From Candidatus Aminicenantota bacterium (GTDB lineage Bacteria; Acidobacteriota; Aminicenantia; Aminicenantales; Saccharicenantaceae): DNA of 64,000 bases. The notes beneath the pieces were generated by a model that saw only the letters and a list, made by a program, of their open reading frames with translations, was not told where the DNA came from and made no database searches. Numbering within the stretch: the stretch's first letter is position 1; every line of letters begins with the position of its first letter. Both the position numbers and the translations under genes were made by a program. This document shows, piece by piece, positions 1,070 through 18,073 of this stretch. The DNA lies in the NCBI GenBank assembly GCA_026393975.1, contig JAPKZD010000018.1, positions 62,001-126,000 of the forward strand, given 5' to 3'.

Positions 1070-2500
1070 ATGAACGCCGAAACAATCGTCCTCCTAACGA
1101 TCCTTGTCCCCATCGTCGGCTCGTTCGCGACCCCCCTGGCCGGCCTGCTGTCCAGGCGCGCCCGGTCGGTCTGGGCCATCCTGGTGAGCGCCGTGACGGC
1201 CGTCTTGCCGCTGACCCTGATCCCCCTCGCTCTCCAAGGGGGGGAGGTTATCGTGCGCAAAAGCCTGGCCCTGGGCTTCGACTTCGTCCTGATCATCGAC
1301 CCGCTGTCGATCTTCATGGCCGGCGTGTCGTCGTTCGTCGGCTGTCTCATCGTCGTCTACTCCGTCGGCTACATCCATAAGGAAGAGAACCAGAACGAAT
1401 ACTACCTGATGGTCCTGCTCTTCATCGGGGCGATGATGGGCCTGGTCTTCTCCGGGAACCTCATCTTCCTCTACCTCTTCTGGGAGATCATCGCCATCAG
1501 CTGCTGGCGGCTCATCGGCTTCTACCGGGAGCCGGCTCACGTCCGCAAGGCCGACAAGGCCTTCCTGGTGACGTTCTTCGGCGCCGTAGTCATGCTCCTC
1601 GGTTTCATCCAGATCTACGGCATCACCAACACCTTCGACATCACGGCCATGCGGGGGACACTCGTCCCGGGGACGGCCGTCCTGCTCATCCTTTTCGGCC
1701 TGTTCTCGAAATCGGCCACGGTCCCGCTCCACACCTGGCTGCCGGACGCCGGCGTCGCGCCGACGACCGTCACGGCCCTGCTCCACGCCGCCGTCCTGGT
1801 CAAGATCGGCGTCTACGCTTTCGCCCGCCTCTTCCTCTATACTTTCCGGCTGCCCGAAGGTTGGCAGCAGGCCATCCCCATCATCGTCATGGTCTCCAGC
1901 CTCGTCGCAGCGGGCGCGGCCGCCGTGGAGAACGATATTAAAAGAATCCTGGCCTACTCGACGATCAGCCAGATCGGCTACATCTTCCTCGGCTTCAGCA
2001 TGGCCAACGCGGCCGGGATCTCCGGGTCGCTTCTCTTCATCCTGATGCACGGGCTGGCCAAGGCCGGGCTCTTTCTCTGCGCCGGGATCGTCATCCACGC
2101 CGTCCACACCAAGGACATCCGGGAGATGGGCGGCCTCGTCAAGACGATGCCGGTCACGGCGATCGCCTTCCTCGTCTGCTCCTTCTCGGTCATCGGCATC
2201 CCACCCTTCGGCGGCTTCTTCTCGAAATTCCTGGTCATCATGGGGACCGTGCAGGCCGGCCGGCCCTGGCTCGCCGCCGCGGCCCTCTTCACCGCCGTCC
2301 TGACGATGTACTACCTTTTCAGGGTTTTCAGCCTGGTGTTCCTGGGTGAGCTCAAGCGCCCGGCTCCCGAGAAAACGAAATCCATGGTCTTTGTCGTCGC
2401 CGTCCTGGCCGTTCTCAGCCTGGCGGCCGGCCTCTTCGTCGCCTACCCGATGAAGCTCGTCAACATCGCGACGACCGAGATGAGTTGGTGGCTCCGATGA
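1070..2500 (+). CDS. Complex I/Mrp antiporter-like membrane subunit (NuoL/M/N family) of group 4 hydrogenase
   Basis: 476 aa polytopic; GLFSKSATVPLHTWLPDAGVAPTTVTALLHAAVLVKIG is typical of proton_antipo_M proteins; first gene of operon. Confidence 0.88.
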   Translation: MNAETIVLLTILVPIVGSFATPLAGLLSRRARSVWAILVSAVTAVLPLTLIPLALQGGEVIVRKSLALGFDFVLIIDPLSIFMAGVSSFVGCLIVVYSVGYIHKEENQNEYYLMVLLFIGAMMGLVFSGNLIFLYLFWEIIAISCWRLIGFYREPAHVRKADKAFLVTFFGAVVMLLGFIQIYGITNTFDITAMRGTLVPGTAVLLILFGLFSKSATVPLHTWLPDAGVAPTTVTALLHAAVLVKIGVYAFARLFLYTFRLPEGWQQAIPIIVMVSSLVAAGAAAVENDIKRILAYSTISQIGYIFLGFSMANAAGISGSLLFILMHGLAKAGLFLCAGIVIHAVHTKDIREMGGLVKTMPVTAIAFLVCSFSVIGIPPFGGFFSKFLVIMGTVQAGRPWLAAAALFTAVLTMYYLFRVFSLVFLGELKRPAPEKTKSMVFVVAVLAVLSLAAGLFVAYPMKLVNIATTEMSWWLR

Positions 2501-4365
2501 CGCCCAAAATGCTTCTTCTCCCCATCCTCCTGCCCGCCGCCCTGGCCGTCGTCCTCCTCGTCATCCCGCGGACGCTCCGCCTCGTCCGGAACGCCCTGGC
2601 CCTGGCCGGCGCGGCCGTCCTTCTCTACTACGGCTTCGTCTTCTTCGCCCTGAAGGACCTCCGGTTCAACGTCCCCTGGCTCGGCATGGGCATCGACTTC
2701 GACCTCCGCCTCTACCACTTCTCGAGCTTCATCCTGCTCGCACTGGCCGGGTTCCTCATCCTGATCACGCTCTATTCGACGGTCAAGATGAAGGACGCGC
2801 CGCGGGCCCGGGAATTCTTCGCCTACGTCTTCCTAACCGCCGCCTTCGCCAACGGGGCGGTGCTGGCCAATAACTTCGTCCCCCTCGTCTTTTTCTGGGA
2901 AGGCTTGCTCGTCACCCTCTATGGCCTCATCACCATCGGCGGCCGGCCGACATCGGGCCGGACCGCGGTCAAGGCCCTTCTGATCAGCGGTTTCTGCGAC
3001 TTCTCGATGATTCTGGGTATCGGGCTCCTGTGGACCGTGAGCGGCACGCTGACCATGTCCCAGGTCTCCGTCGAGCCGACGGGGCTGGCCGCGGTCGCCT
3101 TCGTCCTGATGATGATCGGAGCCGCCGGCAAGGCCGGGGCCATGCCCTTCCACACCTGGATCCCCGACGCCGCCGTCGACGCACCCGTGACCTTCATGGC
3201 CTTCCTGCCGGCCGCCTTCGAGAAACTGCTGGGCATCTACCTCCTGGCCCGGATCTCCCTCGACTTCTTCAAGCTCCGGCCGGGGAGCGGCCTCTCCGTC
3301 CTGCTCATGGTCCTCGGGGCGGTGACCATCGTCCTGGCCGTTCTCATGGCCCTCGTCCAGAAGGACCTCAAGCGGCTCCTGTCCTATCACGCCGTCAGCC
3401 AGGTCGGCTACATGATCCTCGGCATCGGGACGGCCGTGCCGTTCGGCATCGCCGGCGGGCTCTTCCACATGATCAACCACGCCATGTATAAATGCGGCCT
3501 CTTCCTGAGCGCCGGCTCGGTCGAGCACCGGACCGGCACGACCGAGCTCAAGAAGCTCGGCGGCTTGCGGAAAGAGATGCCGCTGACGGCCTTCGGATTC
3601 ACCGTCTGCGCCCTGGCCATTTCCGGGGTCTGGCCGCTCAACGGTTTCGTTTCCAAAGAGATGGTCTTCCACGGCGCCCTCGAATCGGGCTACACGGTCT
3701 TCGCCATCGCGGCCTGGGTCGGGGCGATCTTCACCTTCGCCTCCTTCCTCAAGGCCGGGCATTCCGTATTCTTCGGCGAACGGACCCGCGAGATCCCAGC
3801 GGTCAAGGAGAGCCAACCGGCCATCGTCGTCCCCATCCTCGTCCTGGCGGCCCTCTGCATTCTCTTCGGCGTCTACAATAAGCTCCCCTTGACCCTCTTC
3901 ATCCAGCCCATCCTTGCGGGTCACGTGGAGGCCGGCGCCCATCTCGATTTTACCAGTCACGCCCTGGACATCTTTAACCCGGTGGCCCTTATCTCGATCG
4001 GCTGTCTCGTTCTGGCCTTCCTGCTCCATCGGCACGGCTTCCTGAAGTCCGGCCGCAAGCCCTACCTGGCCTCCGAACCCGTCCATAACCTCCCTGTGGT
4101 CCACAAGCTCTACGACCTGGCCGAGGCCCGGGTGTTCGACCCCTACGAGCAGGGTGTCAAGGTCCTCCACGGGCTGTCTCTCGTCCTGTACAAGGCCGTC
4201 GACCGGCCCATCGATTTCGTCTTCGAGAAGGTCGTCACCGTCGCCGGGGAGAAATTCACGGCCATCCTGAGGAAGGCCCACAACGGGCATTATGCGAACT
4301 ACCTCGCCTGGTGCCTGGCCGGCCTGATCATCGTGGCGGGCGCGATCAGCCTGCTCGCGAAATAG
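2485..4365 (+). CDS. NuoL-like antiporter subunit with long C-terminal extension
   Basis: 626 aa; GAAGKAGAMPFHTWIPDAAVDAPVTFMAFLPAAFEKLLG; extended C-terminus; overlaps upstream gene. Confidence 0.88.
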   Translation: MVAPMTPKMLLLPILLPAALAVVLLVIPRTLRLVRNALALAGAAVLLYYGFVFFALKDLRFNVPWLGMGIDFDLRLYHFSSFILLALAGFLILITLYSTVKMKDAPRAREFFAYVFLTAAFANGAVLANNFVPLVFFWEGLLVTLYGLITIGGRPTSGRTAVKALLISGFCDFSMILGIGLLWTVSGTLTMSQVSVEPTGLAAVAFVLMMIGAAGKAGAMPFHTWIPDAAVDAPVTFMAFLPAAFEKLLGIYLLARISLDFFKLRPGSGLSVLLMVLGAVTIVLAVLMALVQKDLKRLLSYHAVSQVGYMILGIGTAVPFGIAGGLFHMINHAMYKCGLFLSAGSVEHRTGTTELKKLGGLRKEMPLTAFGFTVCALAISGVWPLNGFVSKEMVFHGALESGYTVFAIAAWVGAIFTFASFLKAGHSVFFGERTREIPAVKESQPAIVVPILVLAALCILFGVYNKLPLTLFIQPILAGHVEAGAHLDFTSHALDIFNPVALISIGCLVLAFLLHRHGFLKSGRKPYLASEPVHNLPVVHKLYDLAEARVFDPYEQGVKVLHGLSLVLYKAVDRPIDFVFEKVVTVAGEKFTAILRKAHNGHYANYLAWCLAGLIIVAGAISLLAK

Positions 4366-4375
4366 AGGAGGAGCG

Positions 4376-5857
4376 TTGATCATACTTTTCGTTGCGCTGC
4401 CGCTCGTCGTGGCGGGGATTCTCCCTCTCGTCGGCAAGGTCTCCCGGCGGGTCGTGCCGGACCTGCTGGCCAACGCGGCCCTGCTCTTCCTGCTCGTCTA
4501 CGCCGCGATCACCGGGCGTCACCTCATCGCCGGCGGGCCCGTCCTCCAACAGCTCTCCTGGTTCGGTGAGCCCGTCGCCATCCGGCTGGCCCTGGACGGG
4601 TTCAGCCTGCTCATGCTCCTGGCCATCGCCCTCGTCGGGCTGGCGGCCTGCCTGTTCTCCATCGACTACATGGAGCACTACGGGGCCAAGGCCAATTATT
4701 ACGCCCTGTTCCTGGTCATGATCGCCGGGATGAACGGACTCGTCCTGGCCACGGACCTCTTCAACGTCTACCTCTTCATGGAGGTGGCGGCCGTCGCGTC
4801 CTACGCCCTCGTCGCCTTCGGGCTGGGGCGGGACGAGCTCGAGGCCGCCTTCAAATACCTCCTGCTCTCCGTCGTGGCCACGGCCTTCATCCTGATCAGC
4901 GTCGCCGTCATCTTCGGGATGACCGGGAGCCTGGATTTCGCGGCCGTGGCCAAGGCCCTCCAGGAGCTCAACGCCGGCGCCGCGGTCGGCGTCGCCTCCG
5001 CCTTCTTCCTCATGGGCTTCGGCCTGAAGGCGGCCCTTATCCCGTTCCACGCCTGGCTTCCAGACGCCCACCCTTCGGCCCCGGCGCCCATCTCGGCCGT
5101 CCTGTCCGGCCTCCTGATCAAGGTCTCCGGCGTCTACGCCATGACCCGGATCTTCCTCAACGTCTTCGGCCTGACGCCGGCCCTGTCCACGGTCCTGATG
5201 TCCCTGGGCGCGCTGTCCATGGTCGTCGCCGCCTTCCTCGCCCTGGGCCAGAAGGACATGAAGAGGATGCTGGCCTATTCCTCGATCAGCCAGGTCGGCT
5301 ACGTCGTCCTGGGGATCGGCATCGGGACGCCCCTCGGCATCGCCGGCGGGCTGTTCCACCTCTTCAACCACGCCCTGGCCAAAGGGCTCCTGTTCTTGAC
5401 CAGCGGCTCCGTCCAGCAAGCCACGGGCACGCGGGACCTCGACGAGATGGGCGGCCTGGCCAAGCGCATGCCGATCACGGCCGCAACGAACCTCGTCGGG
5501 GCCCTGTCGATCGCTGGCGTCCCGCCGCTCAACGGGTTCTGGTCGAAGCTGATCATCATCATCGCGCTCGTCCAGTCCGGGCACCCCGTATTCGCCGTGA
5601 TCGCCGTCCTGACCTCGGTCCTGACCCTCTGGTACTATCTCCTCATGCAGCGGAAGGCCTTCTTCGGCAAGCTCAACGAAAAATGGGCCGCCGTCAAGGA
5701 AGCGCCTTTCTGGATGACGGCCGCGACCGTCTTCCTGGCCCTCCTCTGCGTGGGGATCGGCATCCTCTTCTCGTCGACCGTCACGACCTGGATCCAGCCC
5801 GCCGCCGACGTGCTCGCGGACGGGGTCCACGCCGTGATCGGATCGTGGGGATTTTAA
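4376..5857 (+). CDS. MrpD/NuoN-like antiporter subunit
   Basis: 493 aa; GFGLKAALIPFHAWLPDAHPSAPAPISAVLSGLLIKVSGVYAMTRIF. Confidence 0.88.
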   Translation: MIILFVALPLVVAGILPLVGKVSRRVVPDLLANAALLFLLVYAAITGRHLIAGGPVLQQLSWFGEPVAIRLALDGFSLLMLLAIALVGLAACLFSIDYMEHYGAKANYYALFLVMIAGMNGLVLATDLFNVYLFMEVAAVASYALVAFGLGRDELEAAFKYLLLSVVATAFILISVAVIFGMTGSLDFAAVAKALQELNAGAAVGVASAFFLMGFGLKAALIPFHAWLPDAHPSAPAPISAVLSGLLIKVSGVYAMTRIFLNVFGLTPALSTVLMSLGALSMVVAAFLALGQKDMKRMLAYSSISQVGYVVLGIGIGTPLGIAGGLFHLFNHALAKGLLFLTSGSVQQATGTRDLDEMGGLAKRMPITAATNLVGALSIAGVPPLNGFWSKLIIIIALVQSGHPVFAVIAVLTSVLTLWYYLLMQRKAFFGKLNEKWAAVKEAPFWMTAATVFLALLCVGIGILFSSTVTTWIQPAADVLADGVHAVIGSWGF

Positions 5858-5860
5858 ACG

Positions 5861-6343
5861 ATGATCGTGCAAACAGCTCTCCTCATCGGTTTGGTCCTGT
5901 TCTCGGTCCTGGCCATCCTGCTCCGCGACCTGCTCAAGTCGGCCATCTCGCTCGCCGCCGCCAGCCTGTTCCTGGGGATCATCTTCTTCAGGATGAACGC
6001 CCCGTACGCCGGCGTCTTCGAGATCTCCGTCGTCGCCGGGTTGATCACGGTCCTCTTCATCCTGACCATCGCCCTGACCAAGGCCGGCGACGAGGTCCGG
6101 GAATCCCGGGTCGTGAACTGGGTCTTCCCCCTCTTCTTCATCGCCTTCATCATCATCGACGCCCTGGTCATGAAGGGCCTCCTCCGGAAGATCCCGGCCC
6201 TCGCCTCGGGAGCGGAGACGGGCACCTTCGGCGACGTCCTCTGGAAAGGGAGGACGTTCGACCTCGTCGGCCAGATCGCCGTCATCCTGGCCGGCGTGTT
6301 CGCCGTCCTGGCCCTGTTCCGCAAGGGGGACAAACATGACTAA
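5861..6343 (+). CDS. NuoJ-like membrane subunit
   Basis: 160 aa hydrophobic protein between antiporter subunits and NuoK-like gene; position and hydropathy. Confidence 0.7.
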   Translation: MIVQTALLIGLVLFSVLAILLRDLLKSAISLAAASLFLGIIFFRMNAPYAGVFEISVVAGLITVLFILTIALTKAGDEVRESRVVNWVFPLFFIAFIIIDALVMKGLLRKIPALASGAETGTFGDVLWKGRTFDLVGQIAVILAGVFAVLALFRKGDKHD

Positions 6344-6644
6344 CACCTGGTACTTCACCCTGTTTTTCGCGGCCGCCCTCATCTTCGCCGGGATCCTCGG
6401 CCTCCTTCTCCGGCGGAACCTCATCAAGCTCTTCATCGCCATCGAAGTCATCGCCAAGGGCATCAGCCTGCTCCTCCTGGGGACCGGGTTCGCCAAGGAC
6501 AACATCCTCGTCGCCCAGACCCTTGTCGTCACGTTTATCGTCGTCGAGGTCAGCCTCGTGGCCACGGCCCTGGCCCTCATCATCAACATCGCCCGGCAGA
6601 CGAAGAGCCTGGACATCCGCAAGCTGGCCAGGCTGAAAGGTTGA
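6336..6644 (+). CDS. NuoK/MrpC-like membrane subunit
   Basis: 102 aa; GILGLLLRRNLIKLFIAIEVIAKGISLLLLG...TFIVVEVSLVATALALIINI pattern of NuoK/MnhC. Confidence 0.85.
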   Translation: MTNTWYFTLFFAAALIFAGILGLLLRRNLIKLFIAIEVIAKGISLLLLGTGFAKDNILVAQTLVVTFIVVEVSLVATALALIINIARQTKSLDIRKLARLKG

Positions 6645-6647
6645 GCC

Positions 6648-6980
6648 ATGAAGGGAATCGGTTTCCTCCTCTCCCCGCCCGTCGCCTTCCTCTTTTTCCT
6701 GGGGACGGCCTTCGCCCTCTACGGCCTGGGATCGAAAATGGCACCCAAGCTGACCAAGGTCGGCGGCAAGCTCACGACCTACGCCTGCGGCGAGGACATC
6801 CCGGGCGTCAAGATCCAGTTCGGCTACCGCCTCTTCTTCTTCGTCGCCCTGTTCTTCACGATGATGCACGTGGCCGTCCTGGTCATCGCCACCGTTCCCT
6901 CGGGCAAGATCGTCTTTTTCGCCGTCTTCTACCTGCTCATGATCTTCCTGTCCGTCATGGCCCTGGTCACAAGGAGCTAA
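6648..6980 (+). CDS. NuoA-like membrane subunit
   Basis: 110 aa; TTYACGEDIPGVKIQFGYRLFFFVALFFTMMHVAVL corresponds to the NuoA YECG...F..FF..A.LF...D motif. Confidence 0.75.
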   Translation: MKGIGFLLSPPVAFLFFLGTAFALYGLGSKMAPKLTKVGGKLTTYACGEDIPGVKIQFGYRLFFFVALFFTMMHVAVLVIATVPSGKIVFFAVFYLLMIFLSVMALVTRS

Positions 6981-6981
6981 C

Positions 6982-7401
6982 ATGCTGAACAAGCTCACGC
7001 GTTGGTCCAGGATCAAGTCGCCCTGGATCCTCCACCTCAACTCCGGCGCCTGCAACGCCTGCGACATCGAGATCGTCGCCGCGCTGACCCCGCGGTTCGA
7101 CGTCGAGCGCTTCGGCATTCTCCTCAAGGCCACGCCACGCCACGCCGACGTCATCATCGCCAGCGGCCCGGTCACCCGCCAGATAAGGGACCGGATCATC
7201 CGCATCTACGACCAGGTCCCCGACCCCAAGTTCGTCATCGCCGTGGGCGCCTGCGCCATGTCCGGCTGTGTCTACCGCGGCGCGTACAACATCATGGGCG
7301 GCATCGACCAGGTCATCCCGGTGAACATGTACGTCCCGGGCTGCCCGGCCCGGCCCGACGCCATCATCGACGGCGTCGTCAAGCTTCTGGGTAAACTCTA
7401 A
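6982..7401 (+). CDS. [NiFe]-hydrogenase small subunit (NuoB-like)
   Basis: 139 aa; HLNSGACNACDIEIVAAL (CxxCD), GACAMSGCVYRGAYN and PGCPARPDAIIDGVV motifs for the proximal 4Fe-4S cluster. Confidence 0.9.
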   Translation: MLNKLTRWSRIKSPWILHLNSGACNACDIEIVAALTPRFDVERFGILLKATPRHADVIIASGPVTRQIRDRIIRIYDQVPDPKFVIAVGACAMSGCVYRGAYNIMGGIDQVIPVNMYVPGCPARPDAIIDGVVKLLGKL

Positions 7402-7417
7402 GCATCAAGGAACCGAC

Positions 7418-7891
7418 ATGTCCGACATCGAAATCGTCGAAAGCCTGAAGCGGGACCTCGGGGAGAAGGCCCTCGATCTAACGAATCCCGACGTCCGCCG
7501 CATTTTTGTCAAGATCGCGCCGCCGGAGCTCGTCCCGGTCGTGACGCTCCTCCGCGACAAGTACGACTGCGCCTACCTGGCCACGATCAGCGGGGTCGAC
7601 AAGGGCGACACGTTCGAGTTCCTGTACCATTTCGCGTCGCCCGTCGCCAACATCAACCTGCGGACCGAATTCCCGAAATCCGAACCCCGCATCGCGTCCA
7701 TCTGCGCCGTCATCCCGGGCGCCGTCCTCTACGAGCGGGAACTCCAGGAGATGTTCGGCGTGAAGGTCGAGGGCATCCCCGACCCCCGCCGCCTCGTCCT
7801 GCCAGACGACTGGCCCGAAGGCCAATACCCTTTGAGGAAAGACTGGAAGCACGTGCGGCCCCAGGAAGTCATCCCCGGAGGAAAGTCATGA
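7418..7891 (+). CDS. NuoC-like 30 kDa subunit
   Basis: 157 aa; YERELQEMFGVKVEGIPDPRRLVLPDDWPEGQYPLRKDW is the NuoC-family signature. Confidence 0.9.
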   Translation: MSDIEIVESLKRDLGEKALDLTNPDVRRIFVKIAPPELVPVVTLLRDKYDCAYLATISGVDKGDTFEFLYHFASPVANINLRTEFPKSEPRIASICAVIPGAVLYERELQEMFGVKVEGIPDPRRLVLPDDWPEGQYPLRKDWKHVRPQEVIPGGKS

Positions 7892-9090
7892 GTTTCCAGA
7901 TCCCCATCGGTCCCCAGCACCCGGCCCTCAAGGAGCCGATCAGCCTGCGCATGACCGTCGAGGGGGAGGTCATCACGGACGTCGACATGCGCCTCGGCTA
8001 CAATCACCGCGGCATGGAGAAGCTGGCCGAGGAGAAATCCTGGCTCCAGAACATCTACGTCACCGAGCGCATCTGCGGCATCTGCTCCCATTCCCACGCC
8101 ACCTGCTACGTTCAGGGCGTGGAGAAGCTCATGGAGCTCGCGCCGCCCCGGCGCGGCCTTTATATCCGCTACCTCGTCGCCGAGCTCGAGCGCGTCCACA
8201 GCCACCTCCTCTGGCTCGGCGTCGCCGGCCACGAGGCCGGTTTCGATTCGTTCTTCATGTACACCTGGCGCGACCGCGAGATCGTCATGGACCTCCTGGA
8301 GATGATCTCCGGCAACCGCGTCCACTACGCCATCAACACGCTCGGCGGCGTGCGCCGTGACATCGACGAGGGCCAGAAGGCCAAGATCCTGGAAGGCGTC
8401 GCCACGCTGAGAAAGCGGAGCGAATATTATTTCTACATCGGCGCCAACGAACCGAGCTTCGTCGCCAGGATCGCCGGCGTCGGTTATCTGTCCAAGGAAT
8501 CGGCCATCGCCCTCTGCGCCGTCGGCCCCGTCGCCCGGGCCTCGGGCGTCGCCCGCGACGTCCGCAAGGATGACCCGTGCGCCGTCTACGGGGAGCTCGA
8601 CTTCGAGGTGGCGACGGCCGACACTTGCGACGTCCTCGGGCGGGTCGTCGTCCGGGTCAAGGAGTTGCTCGAGTCCTACAAGCTCATCGAGCAGATGGTC
8701 AAGGGCCTGCCGGCCGGCGACATCGCCGTCAAGGCCCCGCGCAAGGCCAAGCCCGGCGAGGTCGTCAGCCGCTACGAGGCGCCCCGGGGCGAGAACATCC
8801 ATTACATCAAGGCCAACGGGACGGACAAGCCCGAGCGCCTGAAGGTCCGGGCCCCCACCCTGGCCAACTACCCGGCCACAGTGGAGATGCTCCGGAAGGG
8901 CTTCATCGCCGACATCCCGCTCATCTTCGCCGCCATCGACCCCTGCATCTGCTGCGCCGAACGGACCGTCACCCTGGTCGCCGCCGGAAGCGGTGAGGAG
9001 TCGGTCGTCCGGATGAGCGATCTGCGCCGGCAGGCGCTCGCCCGGCATCAAAACGCTCCCGTGAAAAGGAATGCGGTATGGCCGTTGTGA
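7888..9090 (+). CDS. Group 4 [NiFe]-hydrogenase large (catalytic) subunit (NuoD-like)
   Basis: 400 aa; both Ni-binding motifs: RICGICSHSH (L1) and DPCICCAER (L2), followed by a C-terminal extension. Confidence 0.93.
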   Translation: MSFQIPIGPQHPALKEPISLRMTVEGEVITDVDMRLGYNHRGMEKLAEEKSWLQNIYVTERICGICSHSHATCYVQGVEKLMELAPPRRGLYIRYLVAELERVHSHLLWLGVAGHEAGFDSFFMYTWRDREIVMDLLEMISGNRVHYAINTLGGVRRDIDEGQKAKILEGVATLRKRSEYYFYIGANEPSFVARIAGVGYLSKESAIALCAVGPVARASGVARDVRKDDPCAVYGELDFEVATADTCDVLGRVVVRVKELLESYKLIEQMVKGLPAGDIAVKAPRKAKPGEVVSRYEAPRGENIHYIKANGTDKPERLKVRAPTLANYPATVEMLRKGFIADIPLIFAAIDPCICCAERTVTLVAAGSGEESVVRMSDLRRQALARHQNAPVKRNAVWPL

Positions 9091-10049
9091 GAACACTCCT
9101 TTATCTCGTCGTCTACCCCGGACTTCTCTTCCTCTTCGTCTATTCGACCTTCTGCGAGTGGTTCGACCGCAAGGTCTACGCCAGGCTCCAGAACCGGATG
9201 GGCCCGACCCACACGGGCCGGTTCGGGCTCCTCCAGCCCATCGCCGACTTCTTCAAGCTCATGGCCAAGGAGGACATCGTCCCCGAGGCCGCGGACAAGC
9301 GTCTCTTCAGTATCCTGCCGGTCGTCGGCCTGGCCGTCGTCGCGACGGCGGGGCTGCTGCTCCCCGTCTGGAACTTCGACCTGGCCAACCCCGGCCTGAC
9401 GTCGTTTTCCGGCGACATCATCGTCGTCCTCTACCTCCTCAGCCTGCCGACGCTCATCCTCTTCCTGGCCGCCTGGGCCTCGACCAACCCCTTCGCCACG
9501 ATCGGCGGCGCCCGCGTCCTGACCATGTTCTTCGGCTACGAGGTCCCGCTCTTCCTGGCCGTCCTGAGCCCGGCCATCCTGGCCGACTCCTGGCGCCTGG
9601 CCGAGATCGCGGCCTTCTACCAGGCGAAGCCCCTCCTCCTCCTGACGAACCTGCTGGGCTTCATCGTCGCCGTCATCGCCGTCCAGGCCAAGCTCGAGCG
9701 GACCCCCTTCGACATCCCCCACGCCGAGACGGAGATCGTCGGCGGGACGTTCACCGAATATTCGGGGAAGAAACTGGCCCTCTTCCGCCTGACCTTCGAC
9801 ATCGAGCTCGTCGTCTCGAGCGGCCTCCTCGCGGCCGTCTTCCTGGGCGGTTTCCCCGGCGGCGCGGTCGTCGGGTTCCTCCATTTCGTGGTCAAGACGC
9901 TCTTCGTCATCTTCCTCCTATCCCTTCTCCGGGCACTGACTTCGCGGATACGCATCGACCAGGTCGTATCCTTCGCCTGGAAATACCTGGCCCCGCTGGC
10001 CGTCCTCCAGCTCCTTGTCACCATCCTCCTGAAGGGATTGCTGTCATGA
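9078..10049 (+). CDS. NuoH/HycD-like membrane subunit
   Basis: 323 aa; EWFDRKVYARLQNRMGPTHTGRFGLLQPIADFFKLMAKEDIVP and KLERTPFDIPHAETEIVGG signatures. Confidence 0.93.
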   Translation: MAVVRTLLYLVVYPGLLFLFVYSTFCEWFDRKVYARLQNRMGPTHTGRFGLLQPIADFFKLMAKEDIVPEAADKRLFSILPVVGLAVVATAGLLLPVWNFDLANPGLTSFSGDIIVVLYLLSLPTLILFLAAWASTNPFATIGGARVLTMFFGYEVPLFLAVLSPAILADSWRLAEIAAFYQAKPLLLLTNLLGFIVAVIAVQAKLERTPFDIPHAETEIVGGTFTEYSGKKLALFRLTFDIELVVSSGLLAAVFLGGFPGGAVVGFLHFVVKTLFVIFLLSLLRALTSRIRIDQVVSFAWKYLAPLAVLQLLVTILLKGLLS

Positions 10050-10477
10050 AACTAGCGGTCTTCCTCCCCGAGCTCCTCCGCCACCTTTTCAAGAAACCCG
10101 CTACGGTCGACTACCCCTTCAAGAAGCTCGCGGTCCCGGCGGATTTCCGCGGCACGCCCTACCTCAGCCCGGAGATGTGCATCGTCTGCCGGGCCTGCGA
10201 GCGGGACTGCCCGGCCGAGGCCATCGAGATCTCCTCGGTCAACGAGGCCGAGAAGCGCTTCAAGATGATCATCCACAACGACCGCTGTATTCACTGCGCC
10301 CAGTGCGTCGACTCCTGCCCGACGACCCCAAAGGCCATGAAGATGGACAGCCTGTTCGAGCTCGCCGACGACGACCGCCACAAGCTGAAGAAGGACTGGG
10401 TCTACGTCCGGGCCGTGCTCAAGCCCAAGGCGGCGGCGCCGGCGACCCCGCCGCCGGCGGCCGAGCCGAAGGCCTAA
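10046..10477 (+). CDS. NuoI/HycF-like 2x[4Fe-4S] ferredoxin subunit
   Basis: MCIVCRACERDCPAEAIE and DRCIHCAQCVDSCPTTPKA; the listed 9071-10477 ORF is a frame fusion, true start ATG 10046. Confidence 0.9.
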   Translation: MKLAVFLPELLRHLFKKPATVDYPFKKLAVPADFRGTPYLSPEMCIVCRACERDCPAEAIEISSVNEAEKRFKMIIHNDRCIHCAQCVDSCPTTPKAMKMDSLFELADDDRHKLKKDWVYVRAVLKPKAAAPATPPPAAEPKA

Positions 10478-10530
10478 ACCCCCCCGCGCCCCGGCCGGGA
10501 CGACCACGCCCTTCCCTGCAGGGCGCCGTC

Positions 10531-10559
10531 TTGCGGGCGGGCGCGGGAAGTCCTACAAT
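10531..10559 (+). promoter_or_regulatory. Sigma70-like promoter upstream of hydrogenase maturation protease
   Basis: TTGCGG (10531-10536), 17 nt, TACAAT (10554-10559); ATG at 10566. Confidence 0.5.
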
Positions 10560-10565
10560 CAAGCC

Positions 10566-11060
10566 ATGGAATCCTGGGAGCGAGTTCTCCGGCGGGAGAT
10601 CCGCCGGTCCGCCCGCGTCGCCGTCGTCGGTGTCGGGAACGTCGGCAGGGGCGATGACGCCGCCGGGGCCTTCGCCGCCCGGGCCCTCCTTGCCGGGCCC
10701 GGCATGTTGCCGGCGAAGGCCCTCGTCATTCCCGCAGAAGAAGCCCCCGAAAATTTCACGGGCGTCATCCGGGCGTTTTCGCCCGACCTCGCGGTCCTCG
10801 TCGACTCCGCCGCGGCCGGGCGGCCGCCGGGTGCGGTCTTTCTCGTCGACCCCGCCGAGGTCGCCGACGAGGACGTTTCCACCCACCGCGTTCCCCTGAC
10901 GCGTCTCGCCCGCTATATCCGAGAGACGATGGACTGCCGGGTCTTAATCCTGGGAATAGGGCCCTCCTCGTTCGCGGAGGGGGCGCCGGTCTCTCCGGTT
11001 GTCGGCCGGGCCGTCCGGAGGGTCGCCGCCGCCCTCAGGGGCGCCCTCGACGCTGACTAG
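10566..11060 (+). CDS. hycI: HycI-type hydrogenase maturation endopeptidase
   Basis: 164 aa; VAVVGVGNVGRGDDAAGAFAARAL...LVDSAAAGRPPG...ILGIGPSSFAEGAPVSPVV, M52 family motifs; follows hydrogenase genes. Confidence 0.85.
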   Translation: MESWERVLRREIRRSARVAVVGVGNVGRGDDAAGAFAARALLAGPGMLPAKALVIPAEEAPENFTGVIRAFSPDLAVLVDSAAAGRPPGAVFLVDPAEVADEDVSTHRVPLTRLARYIRETMDCRVLILGIGPSSFAEGAPVSPVVGRAVRRVAAALRGALDAD

Positions 11061-11079: not shown

Positions 11080-12177
11080 TCAGATCTTCATCGGCATCAG
11101 GACGTAGATGTTGACGATGCCTTCCTCGCCCTCCGGCTTGAGCAGGACGGCGCTGTTCTCGTCCTTGATCTCGAAGACGACCCGTTCGGACGCGACCGAC
11201 GTGAGGAAGTCGAGCAGATACTGGGCGTTGAACCCGATCTCCAGGTCCTGGCCCTTGTATTCGACGGTCAGCCTGTCGCGCGCCTCTCCGATCTCGGGGT
11301 TGGAGGAAAATAACCTCATCCGATTCTTCTCGATGGTGAACTTGATCCCCTTCGACCGCTCGGCCGAGAGGAGGGACACGCGCCGGATGGCGTTGGCCAG
11401 CTCTTCGCGCGAAACGGCCAGCCGGCCGGGGTTATCCTTGGGGATGACCGCCTGATAGTTGGGGAACTTACTGTCGATGATCCGGGAGATGAGGGTCCTC
11501 CGGCCGACCTTGAAGAAAAGGTTGTGCTCGTCGAGGTCGAACTCGACGGTTTCGTCCTCGAATTTTCTGATCTCGTTGAGCGTCTTCTTGGCCACGATGA
11601 CGCTGATGTCCTGGTCGAGTTTCAGCCCGTCCTGGGCCTTTTTCGTGTAGGCCAGGCGGTGCCCGTCCGTACTGACGAGTTCGATCTGCCGGTTTTTGAG
11701 CGAAAGCTGGGCTCCGTTGAGATAATACCTCTGCTCCTGGGTAATCGCGTAGTAAACCCGGTCGATCATGTCGTTGACATCCTTCAACGCCAATTTGATG
11801 CCTTTCTCGAATTTCGGTTCCGGGACCTGGGGATAATCCTCTTTGGGTAGACACAGGATCTTGAACTCGCTGTCCCCCGCCTTGATCTCGATGTTGTCGC
11901 CAACCTTTTCCACCTGGACGGTCTGTCCTTCCGGCAGGGATTTGACGATCTCGAAGATCTTCTTGCCGTTGACCGTGATCGCCCCGGCTTTATCGATGGC
12001 CGCCTCGAGATGCGTCCTCAGCCCGACCTCAAGGTCGGTTCCCGTCAGTTCGATGTCCGACGCCGAGACGTTCATCAGGATGTTGGCCAGGATGGGCATG
12101 GTGTTCCGTTTTTCGACGATCCCCTGGAGGAGTTGCAGCTCTTCCAGAAACGCTTCTTTGGGGAGTGAGAATTTCAT
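11080..12177 (-). CDS. dnaN: DNA polymerase III beta sliding clamp
   Basis: 365 aa; MKFSLPKEAFLEELQLLQGIVEKRNTMPILANILMNVS...NIYVLMPMKI. Confidence 0.96.
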   Translation of the reverse strand: MKFSLPKEAFLEELQLLQGIVEKRNTMPILANILMNVSASDIELTGTDLEVGLRTHLEAAIDKAGAITVNGKKIFEIVKSLPEGQTVQVEKVGDNIEIKAGDSEFKILCLPKEDYPQVPEPKFEKGIKLALKDVNDMIDRVYYAITQEQRYYLNGAQLSLKNRQIELVSTDGHRLAYTKKAQDGLKLDQDISVIVAKKTLNEIRKFEDETVEFDLDEHNLFFKVGRRTLISRIIDSKFPNYQAVIPKDNPGRLAVSREELANAIRRVSLLSAERSKGIKFTIEKNRMRLFSSNPEIGEARDRLTVEYKGQDLEIGFNAQYLLDFLTSVASERVVFEIKDENSAVLLKPEGEEGIVNIYVLMPMKI

Positions 12178-12179
12178 TT

Positions 12180-12262
12180 TGCCACCTCTCGAACCGGATT
12201 CCTTATATTCTTATTATTTATTTCATAAAGATAACTAAAATCAAGAAGAGAAATAAGAAAGT
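12180..12262. other. AT-rich spacer between dnaA and dnaN (possible DUE-like region)
   Basis: ccttatattcttattatttatttcataaagataactaaaatcaagaagagaaataagaaag in a GC-rich background. Confidence 0.5.
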
Positions 12263-12304
12263 CCTCTGGAAATGTGCATATCTCCCCGAACACGTTGATA
12301 ATCC

Positions 12305-13636
12305 TCATTGGATGAAGGCCAAGAGACTGTTGATCTCTTTGTTGAATTCCGGATCGTCCGTCCGAAGCTTGTCTATCTTGCGGACGCTGTAGATGACCGT
12401 CGTGTGGTGTTTTCCACCGAATTTCTTGCCGATTTCGGGAAGGGACGACTTGGTCAATTCCTTGGCCAGGTACATGGCGATCTGGCGGGGAAAGGCTATC
12501 TTGGGGGAGTTGTTCTTCGACTTGAGCTGGGAAGGTTTTATTTTGAACTTGTGGCAGATGAGTTTCTGGATCTTTTCCACAGTGACGATCGTCGTCGACG
12601 AGTCGAGAAGGCCCTTGAGAGCTTCCTTGGTCAGGTCCAAATCGATCTTTTCGCCTTTGAGCGAGGCGAATGCGATGACCCGCCTCAGGTAGCCCTCGAG
12701 CTCCCGGATGTTGGACTGGACCTTGTCGGCGATGTAGAGGGCTACGCTCTCGGGAAGGGAGACCGCCTCGGCCTCCGCTTTTTTCTTGAGGATGGCGATG
12801 CGGGTCTCGATGTCCGGTGGCTTGATGTCGGCGATGAGGCCCCATTCGAACCGGGACCGGAAACGCTCCTCGAGATGGGGGATCTCCTTGGGCGGGCAGT
12901 CGCTCGAGATGACGATCTGCTTCTGGCTGTCATAAAGGTGGTTGAAGGTGTGGAAAAATTCCTCTTTCGTCCGCTCGCGGCCGGAGAGGTAGTGGATGTC
13001 GTCAATCAACAAAACGTCGACGCTCCGGTATTTCTCGCGGAACTCGAGGACCTTGCCGTACTGGAGGTGGTTGATGAGGTCGTTCATGAATTTTTCGGTG
13101 GTGACGTAGAGGATCTTGTTCCGCTCGTTCTGCTGGAGGCTGAAGTGGCCGATGGCGTTCATGAGATGGGTCTTGCCGAGGCCCGCCCCGCCGTAGATGT
13201 AGAGAGGGTTGTAGGACTTGGCCGGGTTCTTGGCCACGGCCAAGGCGGCCGCGTGGGCGAACTGGTTGCAGCTGCCGACGACGAAGTTCTCGAACGTGTA
13301 GTTGGGGTTGAGGTTCGGATTAATGGACTGGCCCTGCTTGGTCTTCCTCTCGTCCGGCGATCGCCTCATGAACGACGACGGCGTGTCGTCGTGGATGTAG
13401 CGGACGTCAAAGGTTTTGCCGAAGAGGTCCCGCGAACATTCGTTGATGATGTTCGAGTAATGGAAGGACAGCCAGTCGCGGAAATAGGAATTTGGGACCT
13501 TGATGTACAAACAATCCTGTTCCTGGCCGATGAAGGTTGTCGGGTCGAACCAGGTCTCGAACGAGTTGGGATCGACCTTGGTTTCGACGGCGCGGAGGAT
13601 TTGAATCCAAAGGTTTTGATTTTCTTTAGGTTCCAT
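12305..13636 (-). CDS. dnaA: Chromosomal replication initiator protein DnaA
   Basis: Start taken as MEPKENQNLWIQILRAVE; Walker A GGAGLGKTHLMNAIG; C-terminal GKKFGGKHHTTVIYSVRKI box-binding motif. Confidence 0.96.
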   Translation of the reverse strand: MEPKENQNLWIQILRAVETKVDPNSFETWFDPTTFIGQEQDCLYIKVPNSYFRDWLSFHYSNIINECSRDLFGKTFDVRYIHDDTPSSFMRRSPDERKTKQGQSINPNLNPNYTFENFVVGSCNQFAHAAALAVAKNPAKSYNPLYIYGGAGLGKTHLMNAIGHFSLQQNERNKILYVTTEKFMNDLINHLQYGKVLEFREKYRSVDVLLIDDIHYLSGRERTKEEFFHTFNHLYDSQKQIVISSDCPPKEIPHLEERFRSRFEWGLIADIKPPDIETRIAILKKKAEAEAVSLPESVALYIADKVQSNIRELEGYLRRVIAFASLKGEKIDLDLTKEALKGLLDSSTTIVTVEKIQKLICHKFKIKPSQLKSKNNSPKIAFPRQIAMYLAKELTKSSLPEIGKKFGGKHHTTVIYSVRKIDKLRTDDPEFNKEINSLLAFIQ

Positions 13637-13649
13637 AGGTGCTGCTATT

Positions 13650-13681
13650 TTTTCCACAGATTTTTCCACATCTGTGGAAAA
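13650..13681. promoter_or_regulatory. Cluster of three DnaA-box-like 9-mers upstream of dnaA
   Basis: TTTTCCACA at 13650-13658 and 13662-13670, and TGTGGAAAA at 13673-13681; each one mismatch from TTATCCACA. Confidence 0.7.
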
Positions 13682-14031
13682 TCCTCTCCCGGGAACAGGT
13701 TGGACCGGGGGAGGCCTGGCAATCATAGCACCACGGGGAGGTCATTTCAAGCTTTTTTTTAGGGGAAAACGGTATTTCGGGGCTGTCGCGGAAGGCCCCG
13801 GTCTGCGGCGCCTGAAAAGCGCTTCCGGAGGTCCCCGGCGGGCTCGAAAAACGGCCGAAAAGAGGCCTCGGGCGAGGCCCCCGCCGGACGGGGAAAACCG
13901 TTCGTTTTTACGCGCTTAGCCAAGGGACGAGCCTTCGCGGCGGAAGTGGACCCCCAGGCTTTGCAGTCCTCAGGCGCGAAGCGAATGAGGGCGGGCAAGG
14001 CCGGGGCCCGGGCCGCTGAGGACGGATCGGG

Positions 14032-14836: not shown

Positions 14837-15031
14837 ATGCCGAAAACCTGTCATATCTGTAAAAAAGGCCCGATTTTCGGGCATAACGTCAGCCATTCCC
14901 ACAAGTCGTCCCCGAAAAAATGGAAGCCCAACCTTCAGCACGTCAAGGCCCAGACCCCGGCGGGCGGCGTGCGCCAGATCTGGGTCTGCACGAGATGCCT
15001 GCGATCGGGGAAAGTGGTCAAAGCGGCCTAA
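14837..15031 (+). CDS. rpmB: 50S ribosomal protein L28
   Basis: MPKTCHICKKGPIFGHNVSHSHKSSPKKWKPNLQ. Confidence 0.95.
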   Translation: MPKTCHICKKGPIFGHNVSHSHKSSPKKWKPNLQHVKAQTPAGGVRQIWVCTRCLRSGKVVKAA

Positions 15032-15037
15032 CCTCGT

Positions 15038-17191
15038 CTACACTCTCTCGACAGACAAAACCTCTTTCAGCGCGGAGATGCGCTGCGTGATGTCCTCGAG
15101 ATGGCGGATGTCCCGGATCCTGATGTCCAGCCTGATCTTGGCCTTGCCCTCGGCGAGCATCGCCGCCTCGGCCTTGGAGATGTTCCCCTCGAGCCCCGCG
15201 ACCGCGGTGGCCACCTTGGCCAGGACCCCGGGCGAGTCCTCGGACTTGACCAGGAGACGGGCCTTGAACGTCCCGGAAAAGGCCGGGTCCCAAGACACCT
15301 CGACCAGCCGCTGACCGTCCAGGATTTCCTTTGTCACGAGCGGGCAACGGAGAGAATGGATGCTCAGCCCCTTCCCCGCCGTGATGTACCCGACGACGGG
15401 CTCGCCCTTGACCGGAGAGCAGCACTTCGCCAGCTTGATCATCTGTCCATCGATGTCTTTGATCCTGACCCCCGGCCCCGGGCCCGGAGCGAACCTGGCC
15501 GCCGCTTTCCCGAGCAGGCCCGGCCGGCGCGGCGTGACCCGGCCGGCGGGGAAGACGGCTTCGATGAGTTCGGGGTTGACGACGATCTTGCCGAGCCCCG
15601 CCTGCCTGTAAAACTCCTCCATGGACGCGGCCCTCGGGCCGAGGGTGGCGGCCAACTGCCGGGCGAGATCCTCCTCCCTCCGGAATTCGGCGGGGAGGAT
15701 GTACTTGCGGATCTCCCGTTCCCAGAGCTTCCGTCCCAGGGCGACGCTCGTCGTCCGGCTCTTGAGGTTGAGCCAGCGCTTGAGTTGCTGGCGCGCGCCG
15801 GCGGTCGCGGCCGAGGCGAGCAGGCCCCGCGTCGGCGTCCTCTCGTCCGACGTCAGGATCTCCACGATGTCCCCCGTCTTGAGAACGGTCTTGAGCGGGG
15901 ACGCGGAGCCGTTGACCCGAGCCCCGGACGCGTGGAGCCCGATCTCCGAGTGGATCTTGAAGGCGAAGTCGAGGGCCGTGGCGCCGGGCGGGAGGTCGAT
16001 GACTTTTCCCTTGGGAGTGAAGACGTAGACCTCCTCCGGGATGAGGTTTGTTTTCAGGCTGCGAAGGAACTCCCGCGGGTTCTTCTGCTCCTCGAAGAGG
16101 GCGGCCATTTCGCGGAGCCAGTGGAGCCGGCGGTCCTCTTTCATCGGGCCGGGCGGCGAGTCGTCCTTGTACAGCCAATGGGCGGCGATGCCGTTCTCGG
16201 CGAGGTCGTGCATCTCCCGGGTCCGGATCTGGATCTCGAACATTTTCCGTCCCTCGGTGATGAGCGTCGTGTGCAGGGCCTGGTAGAGATTGGGCTTGGG
16301 CATGGCGATGAAATCGCGGAACCGCTGGGGCAGGTGGGGCCAGCGCTGGTGGATGATGCCGAGGAGGGCGTAGCAATTCTTGACGGAGTCGGTGATGACC
16401 CGCAGGGCCAGGAAATCGAAGACTTGGTCGAAGGCGATGTCCCGCCGCTTCATCTTGCTCCAGACGCTGTAAGGGCGCTTGATCCGGGAGAAGACCTCGG
16501 CCGGGATGCCGTTCTCCCGGACGAGCTCCTCGAGCGTCTTCTTCATGGCCTTGAGGTCCGCCTCGGCCGTCCTTCTCCCGGGCTCCACGGACGCGGCGAT
16601 CTTGGCGAACTCCTCGGGGGCCACGTAGCGGAAAGACAGGTCCTCGAGCTCGGCCCGGATGCGCCCCATGCCGAGCCGGTTGGCGATCGGGGCGTAGATG
16701 TCGAGCGTCTCGCGGGCGATCTGCCGCTGCCTCTCCTCGTCGAGGTGCCGGAGGGTCTTGAGGTTGTGGATCCGGTCGGCCAGCTTGATGAAGATGACCC
16801 GGATGTCGTCGGTCATGGCCAGGATGATCTTCCGGATGGTCTCGGCCCGGCGGACTTCGGGCGACACCTCCTGGACCCGGCTGATCTTGGTCACGCCCTC
16901 GACCAGGTCGGCGACCGCCTTGCCGAAATTCTCGCGGATGTCCGCGGCCGTCGCGTCCGTATCCTCGAGGACGTCGTGGAGGAGGGCGGCGACGAGCGTC
17001 GTCTTGTCGAGCTTCATGTCGGCGAGGTAGTCGGCCACTTCGAGCGGATGGCTGAGATAGGGTTCCCCGGAACGGCGGACCTGCCCCTTGTGGGCCTTGC
17101 CGGCGAACACGTAGGCCTTCTGGAGGACGAGGAGCTCTTTTTCGCTGATGTAAGAGGAGGCCTTTTCGAGGATGTCGTCAAACCGGATCAT
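15038..17191 (-). CDS. rel: Bifunctional (p)ppGpp synthetase/hydrolase RelA/SpoT
   Basis: MIRFDDILEKASSYISEKELLVLQKAYVFAGKAHKGQVRRSGEPYLSHPLEVADYLADM...HD, synthetase, TGS and ACT regions; upstream part of listed ORF (to 17611) is out-of-gene. Confidence 0.95.
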   Translation of the reverse strand: MIRFDDILEKASSYISEKELLVLQKAYVFAGKAHKGQVRRSGEPYLSHPLEVADYLADMKLDKTTLVAALLHDVLEDTDATAADIRENFGKAVADLVEGVTKISRVQEVSPEVRRAETIRKIILAMTDDIRVIFIKLADRIHNLKTLRHLDEERQRQIARETLDIYAPIANRLGMGRIRAELEDLSFRYVAPEEFAKIAASVEPGRRTAEADLKAMKKTLEELVRENGIPAEVFSRIKRPYSVWSKMKRRDIAFDQVFDFLALRVITDSVKNCYALLGIIHQRWPHLPQRFRDFIAMPKPNLYQALHTTLITEGRKMFEIQIRTREMHDLAENGIAAHWLYKDDSPPGPMKEDRRLHWLREMAALFEEQKNPREFLRSLKTNLIPEEVYVFTPKGKVIDLPPGATALDFAFKIHSEIGLHASGARVNGSASPLKTVLKTGDIVEILTSDERTPTRGLLASAATAGARQQLKRWLNLKSRTTSVALGRKLWEREIRKYILPAEFRREEDLARQLAATLGPRAASMEEFYRQAGLGKIVVNPELIEAVFPAGRVTPRRPGLLGKAAARFAPGPGPGVRIKDIDGQMIKLAKCCSPVKGEPVVGYITAGKGLSIHSLRCPLVTKEILDGQRLVEVSWDPAFSGTFKARLLVKSEDSPGVLAKVATAVAGLEGNISKAEAAMLAEGKAKIRLDIRIRDIRHLEDITQRISALKEVLSVERV

Positions 17192-17331
17192 GGACGGACG
17201 CCCCCCTTGTCCAAGGATCGCGGCGGCGGCTTCGAGGGCGTTGGCGGCCGAACACGTCTCGGTCGAGAAAAACGGCCCAGCGTATCGGCATGACAAACGT
17301 TCGCCGGTGGCGAAGACCTCCGATATGACGG

Positions 17332-17631
17332 CTAAGAAGAAGTTTTTTCGGGCTTGGGCTTGGCGGCCTCGGCGGGGGCGGTTTTTGCCGCGGCCTTGGT
17401 CTCGGCGGGAGCAGTCTTCGCCGCGGCCTTGGCCTCGGCGGACGCCGAGCCTTTCTTGGGGTGGTCGGTAATGTACCAGCCGCTCCCCTTGAACTGGATG
17501 GCCGGGGAGGAGATGAGCTTGACGACGGAGCCGCCGCACTTGGGGCACTTCTCGGGCGGCTTGTCCTTGGCTTTCTGGAGCACCTCGCAGACCTCGCGGC
17601 ACTTGGTGCACTGATATTCGTAAATCGGCAT
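17332..17631 (-). CDS. FmdB-family zinc ribbon protein with Ala/Lys-rich tail
   Basis: MPIYEYQCTKCREVCEVLQKAKDKPPEKCPKCGGSVVKLISSPAIQFKGSGWYITD; tail AEAKAAAKTAPAETKAAAKTAPAEAAKPKPEKTSS. Confidence 0.88.
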   Translation of the reverse strand: MPIYEYQCTKCREVCEVLQKAKDKPPEKCPKCGGSVVKLISSPAIQFKGSGWYITDHPKKGSASAEAKAAAKTAPAETKAAAKTAPAEAAKPKPEKTSS

Positions 17632-17700
17632 CGCGGCGCTCTCCTGGTCCAACTTGCGATAAAGAAAATATATTATATCAGAATTCCGTCCGCCTGAGTT

Positions 17701-18029
17701 AGTGACGGCAATCCCGGGATCATCTTGCAGAGAATCCTAAGTGCCGCGAACGCGGCGACCGCTAAACCTGAGGCCGAGGGGATCGTCTGAGTAAACATAA
17801 GCGATGATTTAGTCGGTCGGCGTGACGGACGAGGGCAGTTTCAGGGGAAACCGCCAAAACGTGTTTGAGCTCGGCGTAGCGCACGCCAAGCGAGTTGTTT
17901 TGGCGCCGAGTCCGGTGCGATGACCGGCGTGAAGAATTAAACCCATTCGACTCCCCGGCCTTAAGCCCGGGGATATGCGCAGGGTTAATACTGAGCGTCA
18001 CCAACCCAGTTTTAAAAAGGGGGTTGGTG
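17701..18029 (+). mobile_element. Candidate orphan IS200/IS605-type right end / omegaRNA-like structured RNA with possible TnpB C-terminal remnant
   Basis: Frame at 17701 reads SDGNPGIILQRILSAANAATAKPEAEGIV* (TnpB-tail-like); followed by nested inverted repeats GCCAAAAC/GTTTTGGC (17853-17860/17897-17904), GGCGTAGCGCACGCC, CCGGTGCGATGACCGG, CCCCGGCCTTAAGCCCGGGG and CACCAACCC...GGGTTGGTG (17999-18029). Confidence 0.4.
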
Positions 18030-18073
18030 GCAGCGAACGTATCACCGCGCGGACGTCGATGATACCCCGAGGC

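Follow-up and report, generated by a model that had tools for sequence, protein, structure and literature searches.

Positions 1070-11060 of the 64,000-nucleotide stretch analysed here (hereafter the window), which derives from a Candidatus Aminicenantota bacterium (contig JAPKZD010000018.1), hold an operon predicted to encode a group 4 [NiFe]-hydrogenase. Its catalytic arm is hydrogenase-like, and its membrane arm has counterparts of every complex I membrane subunit, among them a NuoA with three helices and a NuoL-like subunit bearing helix HL. The operon comprises 12 genes, all on the + strand and separated by short gaps or overlaps, as judged from open reading frames and Pfam/NCBIfam matches. 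Three antiporter-like subunits, NuoJ/K/A/B/C/D/H/I-like subunits and a HycI protease were each found with their expected families, in the order L-L-L-J-K-A-B-C-D-H-I with the HycI gene last (Table 1). A first-pass annotation made from the sequence alone had listed the same subunits in one co-directional block, which we could confirm, but its count of 11 genes was too low, since its own list sums to 12 (3 + 8 + 1). No NuoE/F/G, no NADH, F420 or formate module and no Mrp E/F/G/B-like gene was detected in the operon. The earlier statement that NuoE/F/G homologues are absent is true for the operon; a true complex I operon that includes NuoE/F/G was found on another contig of the genome (G000:C18, locus L117). 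The presence of this separate complex I also implies that the hydrogenase operon is not the organism's complex I.

The large subunit (D) carries both Ni-Fe ligand motifs, RICGICSHSH and DPCICCAER, with the ligands C63, C66, C353 and C356. In a residue table of the NuoA-bearing clade described below, these four cysteines were invariant (29/29 members), in full agreement with the earlier claim that the motifs are kept, unlike in true NuoD. The equivalent of MbhL Glu21 was Glu in 28/28 members, with one gap. In NuoD, His and Tyr of the quinone site were present in 23/23 sequences, whereas the clade has Lys/Glu/His and Gly at these positions (Lys15 and Gly64 in the window protein). The best matches of the large subunit in the Protein Data Bank (PDB) were MbhL with 281 bits and HycE with 269 bits, while NuoD reached 195 bits or less. 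Likewise, the B subunit has the motif GACNACDIE, with CxxC as in hydrogenases, where most complex I NuoB proteins have ACC, with CC.

The ...CCAER site of the large subunit is followed by a 41-residue tail that aligns with the tail of HycE, which is cleaved off by HycI in Escherichia coli. A cleavable C-terminal tail with a maturation protease is not universal in group 4. The HycE-like tail, together with the HycI gene in the operon, suggests that the large subunit of the window may be processed in the same way. Furthermore, HypD is encoded in the genome.

In a large-subunit tree of 73 rows, all 29 NuoA-bearing rows formed one clade (100/99), and NuoD was split from the remaining rows with 100/100. 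Ehr-like proteins, which lack the Ni-Fe ligands, adjoined Hyc/Hyf, far from the NuoA-bearing clade. The test set in advance, namely whether the large subunit groups with hydrogenases or with NuoD or Ehr-like proteins, was therefore decided for the hydrogenases. Together, the two ligand motifs, the tree position and the tail with HycI place the operon, on sequence criteria, among the group 4 [NiFe]-hydrogenases.

These data bear directly on two other identities. A ferredoxin:quinone oxidoreductase, i.e. a complex I without NuoEFG, would have the same 11 subunits, and such clusters are known in bacteria (PMC7509429). However, the Ni-Fe ligands are intact, the quinone-site His and Tyr are missing throughout the clade, and the B subunit has CxxC instead of CC; the HycI gene, the separate complex I, the large-subunit tree and the concatenated tree described below also speak against this reading, which we consider very improbable. 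Still more remote is the possibility that hydrogenase activity has been lost, as in an Ehr-type complex: Ehr shares the membrane arm and occurs in other uncultured bacterial phyla (PMC6349859), but the sampled Ehr-like proteins lack the ligands that the window protein retains and group with Hyc/Hyf.

The NuoA-like subunit and the membrane arm

The 110-aa protein encoded within the operon was identified, through its sequence family, as a NuoA homologue. When searched alone against Oxidored_q4 it scored 17.3 bits (E 0.0056), which is under the Pfam curated cut-off of 23.3. A family alignment was built from its relatives at 71 loci, with residue counts taken over 72 sequences. Oxidored_q4 was matched by 19/19 scanned relatives, with a best value of 5.1e-7, and the family profile yielded 23 matches in the PDB, all of them NuoA/ND3 chains (best 2.7e-5). 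The preset hidden Markov model test of the NuoA-like character suggested in the first-pass annotation was thus positive for the family, with the window protein alone remaining below the cut-off. In an AlphaFold model of moderate confidence (mean predicted local distance difference test score, pLDDT, 74), three helices at residues 10-31, 58-82 and 88-109 follow the NuoA pattern. A fold search with this model returned a single non-significant match, chain j of a complex I entry (E 7.8), to which we gave no weight.

The loop motif YxCGE includes the ND3 loop cysteine (Cys47), which was kept in 70/72 NuoA-like sequences. In helix 2, MHVA replaces the acidic FDxE pair of NuoA, His74 being present in 70/72 sequences and Glu in 2/72. 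The FDxE pair is typical of NuoA/ND3, but it does not define the family. In the NuoA-like proteins of L056 and of the Omnitrophota locus L064, the loop reads GGE rather than CGE, and helix 2 has Glu where the other members have the fixed His.

A search of 17 further loci, of group 4 or related type, gave no NuoA-like reading frame (best E 0.7). The first-pass annotation had stated that Mbh, Ech, Hyc and Hyf generally lack NuoA; this holds for E. coli Hyc and Hyf, but for Mbh it is correct only in part, since MbhI is regarded in structural papers as the counterpart of ND3 (PMC10396290, PMC7684303). The ND3-like character of MbhI escapes detection by sequence. According to the same papers, MbhI bears the ND3-like loop and helix HL together.

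All three antiporter-like subunits keep the key Glu and Lys residues of NuoL/M/N; in subunit 1, Glu139, Lys214 and Lys386 align with NuoL E144/K229/K399. In addition, the NuoK-like subunit has residues corresponding to the two membrane glutamates of NuoK. Residues 9-622 of subunit 2 align to positions 4-610 of the 615 in the NCBIfam NuoL model, and this is the only antiporter-like subunit that matches to the end of the model. AlphaFold predicted a 47-residue helix followed by a helix of transmembrane (TM) length in its C-terminal third, with low confidence (mean pLDDT 60.5). A profile of this region had a single PDB match under E=1, the C-terminal end of MbhI, which was not significant (E 0.27). 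The ND3-like part and HL, which are on one protein in Mbh, would here sit on two proteins, as in complex I. NuoA and HL are both thought to be important for coupling, and they occur here in a hydrogenase, where the fixed change from FDxE to MHVA marks a difference when the electron acceptor is a proton and not quinone.

Distribution and relation to complex I

We compared the gene order of 80 related genome loci, using the phylum labels of the sequence records. Wherever the contig was long enough the order L-L-L-J-K-A-B-C-D-H-I was retained, mostly with HycI, the one exception being L021. The recurrence of the same order across loci shows that the operon is not a chance arrangement. Besides Aminicenantes and other Acidobacteriota, the loci span Omnitrophota, Elusimicrobia, TA06, Edwardsbacteria/UBP2, one Bacillota metagenome-assembled genome (MAG) and a few others. 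The nearest large subunit (99% identical) belongs to an Acidobacteria MAG locus and the next nearest to Candidatus Aminicenantes. Further members, L205-L210, came from a sample of the Bacillota MAG's phylum, three of them with a variant order, and the NuoA gene was present in 52/120 genomes of the window organism's own class. In the Bacillota-labelled L205-L207, NuoA is present and split J genes come first (J-J-K-L-L-L-A-B-C-D-H-I-HycI). At L021 (9074-12286), from an Acidobacteria MAG, the genes present are B-C-D-I-HycI alone; the Ni-Fe motifs are intact, and 21 kb of gap-free sequence showed no membrane subunits. The locus is either a soluble derivative of the enzyme or an assembly artefact. 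At L064, a second, different group 4 cluster (15001-19061; HycB-like, H, B, C, D and ferredoxin) lies a few kb downstream of the NuoA-bearing operon.

Among known systems, the nearest counterpart is Hfo, an Fpo-like [NiFe]-hydrogenase from archaea of the Bathyarchaeia. It was reported as the first [NiFe] hydrogenase to match the 11-subunit composition of Fpo/Nuo (PMC7886697). Compared by description, Hfo likewise has 11 Fpo/Nuo subunits without an input module and intact Ni-Fe motifs, but it is archaeal and has an Fpo-like gene order, whereas the window operon starts with the antiporter genes and ends with HycI. The Asgard group 4 complex-I-like hydrogenase shares the Ni-Fe large subunit, several NuoL/M/N-like subunits and a full-length HL on the L-like subunit, but it is archaeal and adjoins Hdr and ATP synthase genes; the portion of the account drawn on here does not mention NuoA (PMC11291895).

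Mbh of Pyrococcus furiosus (group 4d) resembles the window enzyme in its large subunit, including Glu21, in the elements of three-loop coupling and in having MbhI as ND3 equivalent. It differs in its one antiporter-like subunit, its Mrp-type Na+ module and the location of HL on MbhI, where the window operon has three antiporters, no Mrp module, a separate three-helix NuoA and HL on the NuoL-like subunit. Hyc/Hyf (group 4a) have a large subunit with a cleavable tail and HycI, and Hyf also has three antiporter-like subunits; however, E. coli Hyc/Hyf lack NuoA and NuoJ, and the window operon lacks the formate module and belongs to a separate clade. Complex I (Nuo) has the same 11 core P- and Q-module subunits, the same ABCD-HI order and likewise HL on a NuoL-like subunit, whereas the window operon lacks NuoEFG, carries a Ni-Fe site where complex I has its quinone site, and has CxxC for CC in B and MHVA for FDxE in NuoA.

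Several established types were rejected as identities of the operon: true complex I by the lack of NuoEFG and by Lys15/Gly64; Mbh proper by the lack of an Mrp-type module and by the HL-like extension on antiporter subunit 2; formate hydrogenlyase by the absent formate module and the separate clade in the large-subunit tree; and Ehr by the intact ligands and its separate position in that tree.

The first-pass annotation had suggested a possible place in the 4g-like part of the family; HydDB subgroup 4g is reported to be polyphyletic in the part of PMC11291895 drawn on here. Excerpts of other reports note group 4 hydrogenases for Aminicenantes (PMC5459899, PMC10766756) and group 4g for Omnitrophota (PMC8542988), in these parts without subunit detail. 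No earlier description of the bacterial NuoA-bearing clade was found in the literature searched, which did not cover Kadnikov et al. 2019 (Aminicenantes genome).

When B, C, D, H and I were concatenated (40 rows, 1097 columns), the resulting tree had one branch (96/95) that gathered all other sampled group 4 hydrogenases, leaving the NuoA-bearing clade adjoining complex I. This is the position architecturally between Mbh/Hyf and complex I that the first-pass annotation had proposed. In a quick concatenated tree of 58 rows, the placement received a Shimodaira-Hasegawa-like approximate likelihood ratio test (SH-aLRT) value of 93. As the 40-row tree is unrooted and does not include archaeal Hfo and Fpo, the clade is favoured rather than demonstrated as the closest relative of complex I.

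The debate on how complex I originated from hydrogenases has so far drawn on Mbh, on Ehr and on Hfo of archaea. A clade that occurs across several bacterial phyla and combines the full 11-subunit core with a Ni-Fe site provides a second, bacterial test case. Tentatively, and with less than even confidence, the NuoA-bearing clade may be, of all living hydrogenases, the one most closely related to complex I, their common ancestor having had all 11 subunits, including NuoA and three antiporters, around a Ni-Fe site. Complex I would then have come about when the active site was replaced within an already complete membrane apparatus, not by adding membrane subunits one at a time. It is also quite conceivable, if short of probable, that later recombination brought together a hydrogenase and a complex-I-like membrane arm including NuoA, in which case the intermediate tree position would not be ancestral. 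In line with this history, B, C, D and I were on average more hydrogenase-like, whereas H, alone of the five compared, was closer to complex I than to other group 4 proteins. Moreover, the approximately unbiased (AU) test did not reject a placement of complex I with the Mbh-like locus L215 (p 0.06), while a placement with L211 was rejected (p 0.004). Against recombination, H alone and B alone both reproduced the three-way split of the concatenated tree, and NuoA tracks the D clade exactly.

Proposed function and genome context

In agreement with the first-pass annotation, we propose that the operon enzyme oxidises ferredoxin, evolves H2 and pumps ions; it may also work reversibly. We assign this reading a probability of about 0.8. 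We infer the electron donor, the direction, the ion (H+ or Na+) and the stoichiometry; donor, direction and ion are derived from Mbh (PMC11228991) and the genome content. Electrons from reduced ferredoxin would enter at the NuoI-like subunit with its two [4Fe-4S] clusters and travel through the cluster in the NuoB-like subunit to the Ni-Fe site in the NuoD-like subunit, reducing protons to H2. The energy released would drive ions outward via the NuoH site and the three antiporter-like subunits. Coupling may involve a three-loop relay, formed by the NuoA TM1-2 loop, the beta1-beta2 loop of the large subunit and the NuoH TM5-6 loop, plus the J/K channel, by analogy with both Mbh and complex I; loop coupling between MbhI and MbhL has been described for the related Mbh (PMC11228991, PMC7684303). 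The proposal is supported by the intact ligands and Glu21 equivalent, the lost quinone-site residues, CxxC in the B subunit, HycI, HypD, the grouping of the large subunit with hydrogenases, the three-helix NuoA, the antiporter Glu/Lys residues, the membrane glutamates of K and the lack of an NADH, F420 or formate module.

The host draft genome (2.95 Mb, 95% complete) encodes three 2-oxoacid:ferredoxin oxidoreductases, and no RnfC_N match was found in it. This combination implies that an outlet for reduced ferredoxin is needed, and it is plausible that the operon enzyme is the main one. The host is probably a fermenting bacterium. For uncultured fermenters among the Aminicenantes, Omnitrophota and Elusimicrobia, the operon thus offers a concrete energy-conserving enzyme.

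Several points weigh against the proposed ion pump. The literature search gave no biochemical measurement for any clade member, and with a draft genome the absence of Rnf is not proof. With MHVA in place of FDxE, the coupling path cannot match that of complex I exactly. Furthermore, three antiporter-like subunits seem a large number given how little the voltage drops between ferredoxin and H2, which suggests operation at low H2 or running in reverse, as proposed for Hfo.

Group 4 enzymes are generally reversible, and three antiporter-like subunits suit a high ion-to-electron ratio. An enzyme running mainly in reverse would use the ion gradient to drive H2-dependent ferredoxin reduction, as has already been proposed for Hfo of Bathyarchaeia, the closest architectural relative (PMC7886697). 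However, Aminicenantes are described as fermentative H2 producers in the portions of two reports drawn on here (PMC5459899, PMC10766756), and the genome has three oxidoreductases that reduce ferredoxin. We therefore regard mainly reverse operation as rather unlikely and retain H2 evolution from ferredoxin as the preferred direction.

A second [NiFe] hydrogenase of the genome (G000:C14:40352-41608; L138, L139) has the motifs CGICPVSH and DPCLSC and NuoF/NuoG-like neighbours; it is of the soluble type and probably belongs to group 3.

Gene list and neighbourhood

The genes of the operon are listed in Table 1. The second antiporter gene probably starts at ATG 2497 rather than at TTG 2485, and the start of subunit I is ATG 10046, in an ATGA overlap with H.

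Table 1. Genes of the hydrogenase operon, in window positions.
Gene product	Positions	Strand	Family evidence
Antiporter-like subunit 1, 476 aa, NuoL/HyfD-like, without HL extension	1070..2500	+	Proton_antipo_M 248.8 bits; top NCBIfam models NuoL, HyfD
Antiporter-like subunit 2, 622 aa, NuoL-like; long extension at the C-terminus, predicted as helix HL and the last TM helix	2497..4365	+	NCBIfam NuoL model
Antiporter-like subunit 3, 493 aa, MrpD/NuoM-like	4376..5857	+	Proton_antipo_M 246 bits; top NCBIfam models MrpD/NuoM-type
NuoJ-like subunit, 160 aa, N-terminus also MbhD-like	5861..6343	+	Oxidored_q3 1.5e-9, MbhD 2.1e-7; both above cut-off
NuoK-like subunit, 102 aa	6336..6644	+	Oxidored_q2 2.4e-16
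NuoA/ND3-like subunit, 110 aa, three predicted TM helices	6648..6980	+	Oxidored_q4 E 0.0056 alone; family profile
NuoB/small hydrogenase-like subunit, 139 aa, CxxC in place of NuoB's CC	6982..7401	+	Oxidored_q6 7.7e-30
NuoC-like subunit, 157 aa	7418..7891	+	Complex1_30kDa 1e-30
[NiFe]-hydrogenase large subunit (D), 400 aa	7888..9090	+	Complex1_49kDa 1.9e-65, NiFeSe_Hases 3.3e-13
NuoH-like membrane anchor, 323 aa	9078..10049	+	NADHdh 4.4e-86
NuoI-like 2x[4Fe-4S] ferredoxin subunit, 143 aa	10046..10477	+	Fer4 families up to 1.2e-11; two CxxCxxCxxxC motifs in sequence
HycI-type hydrogenase maturation protease, 164 aa	10566..11060	+	PF01750 HycI 1.8e-8, above cut-off

The operon converges on dnaN and dnaA (window 11080-13726, - strand), and the sign of the GC skew changes near these genes. 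Downstream on the opposite strand, dnaN was present in 35/80 and dnaA in 32/80 of the related loci, which indicates that the hydrogenase has kept its place beside dnaA-dnaN across Aminicenantales.

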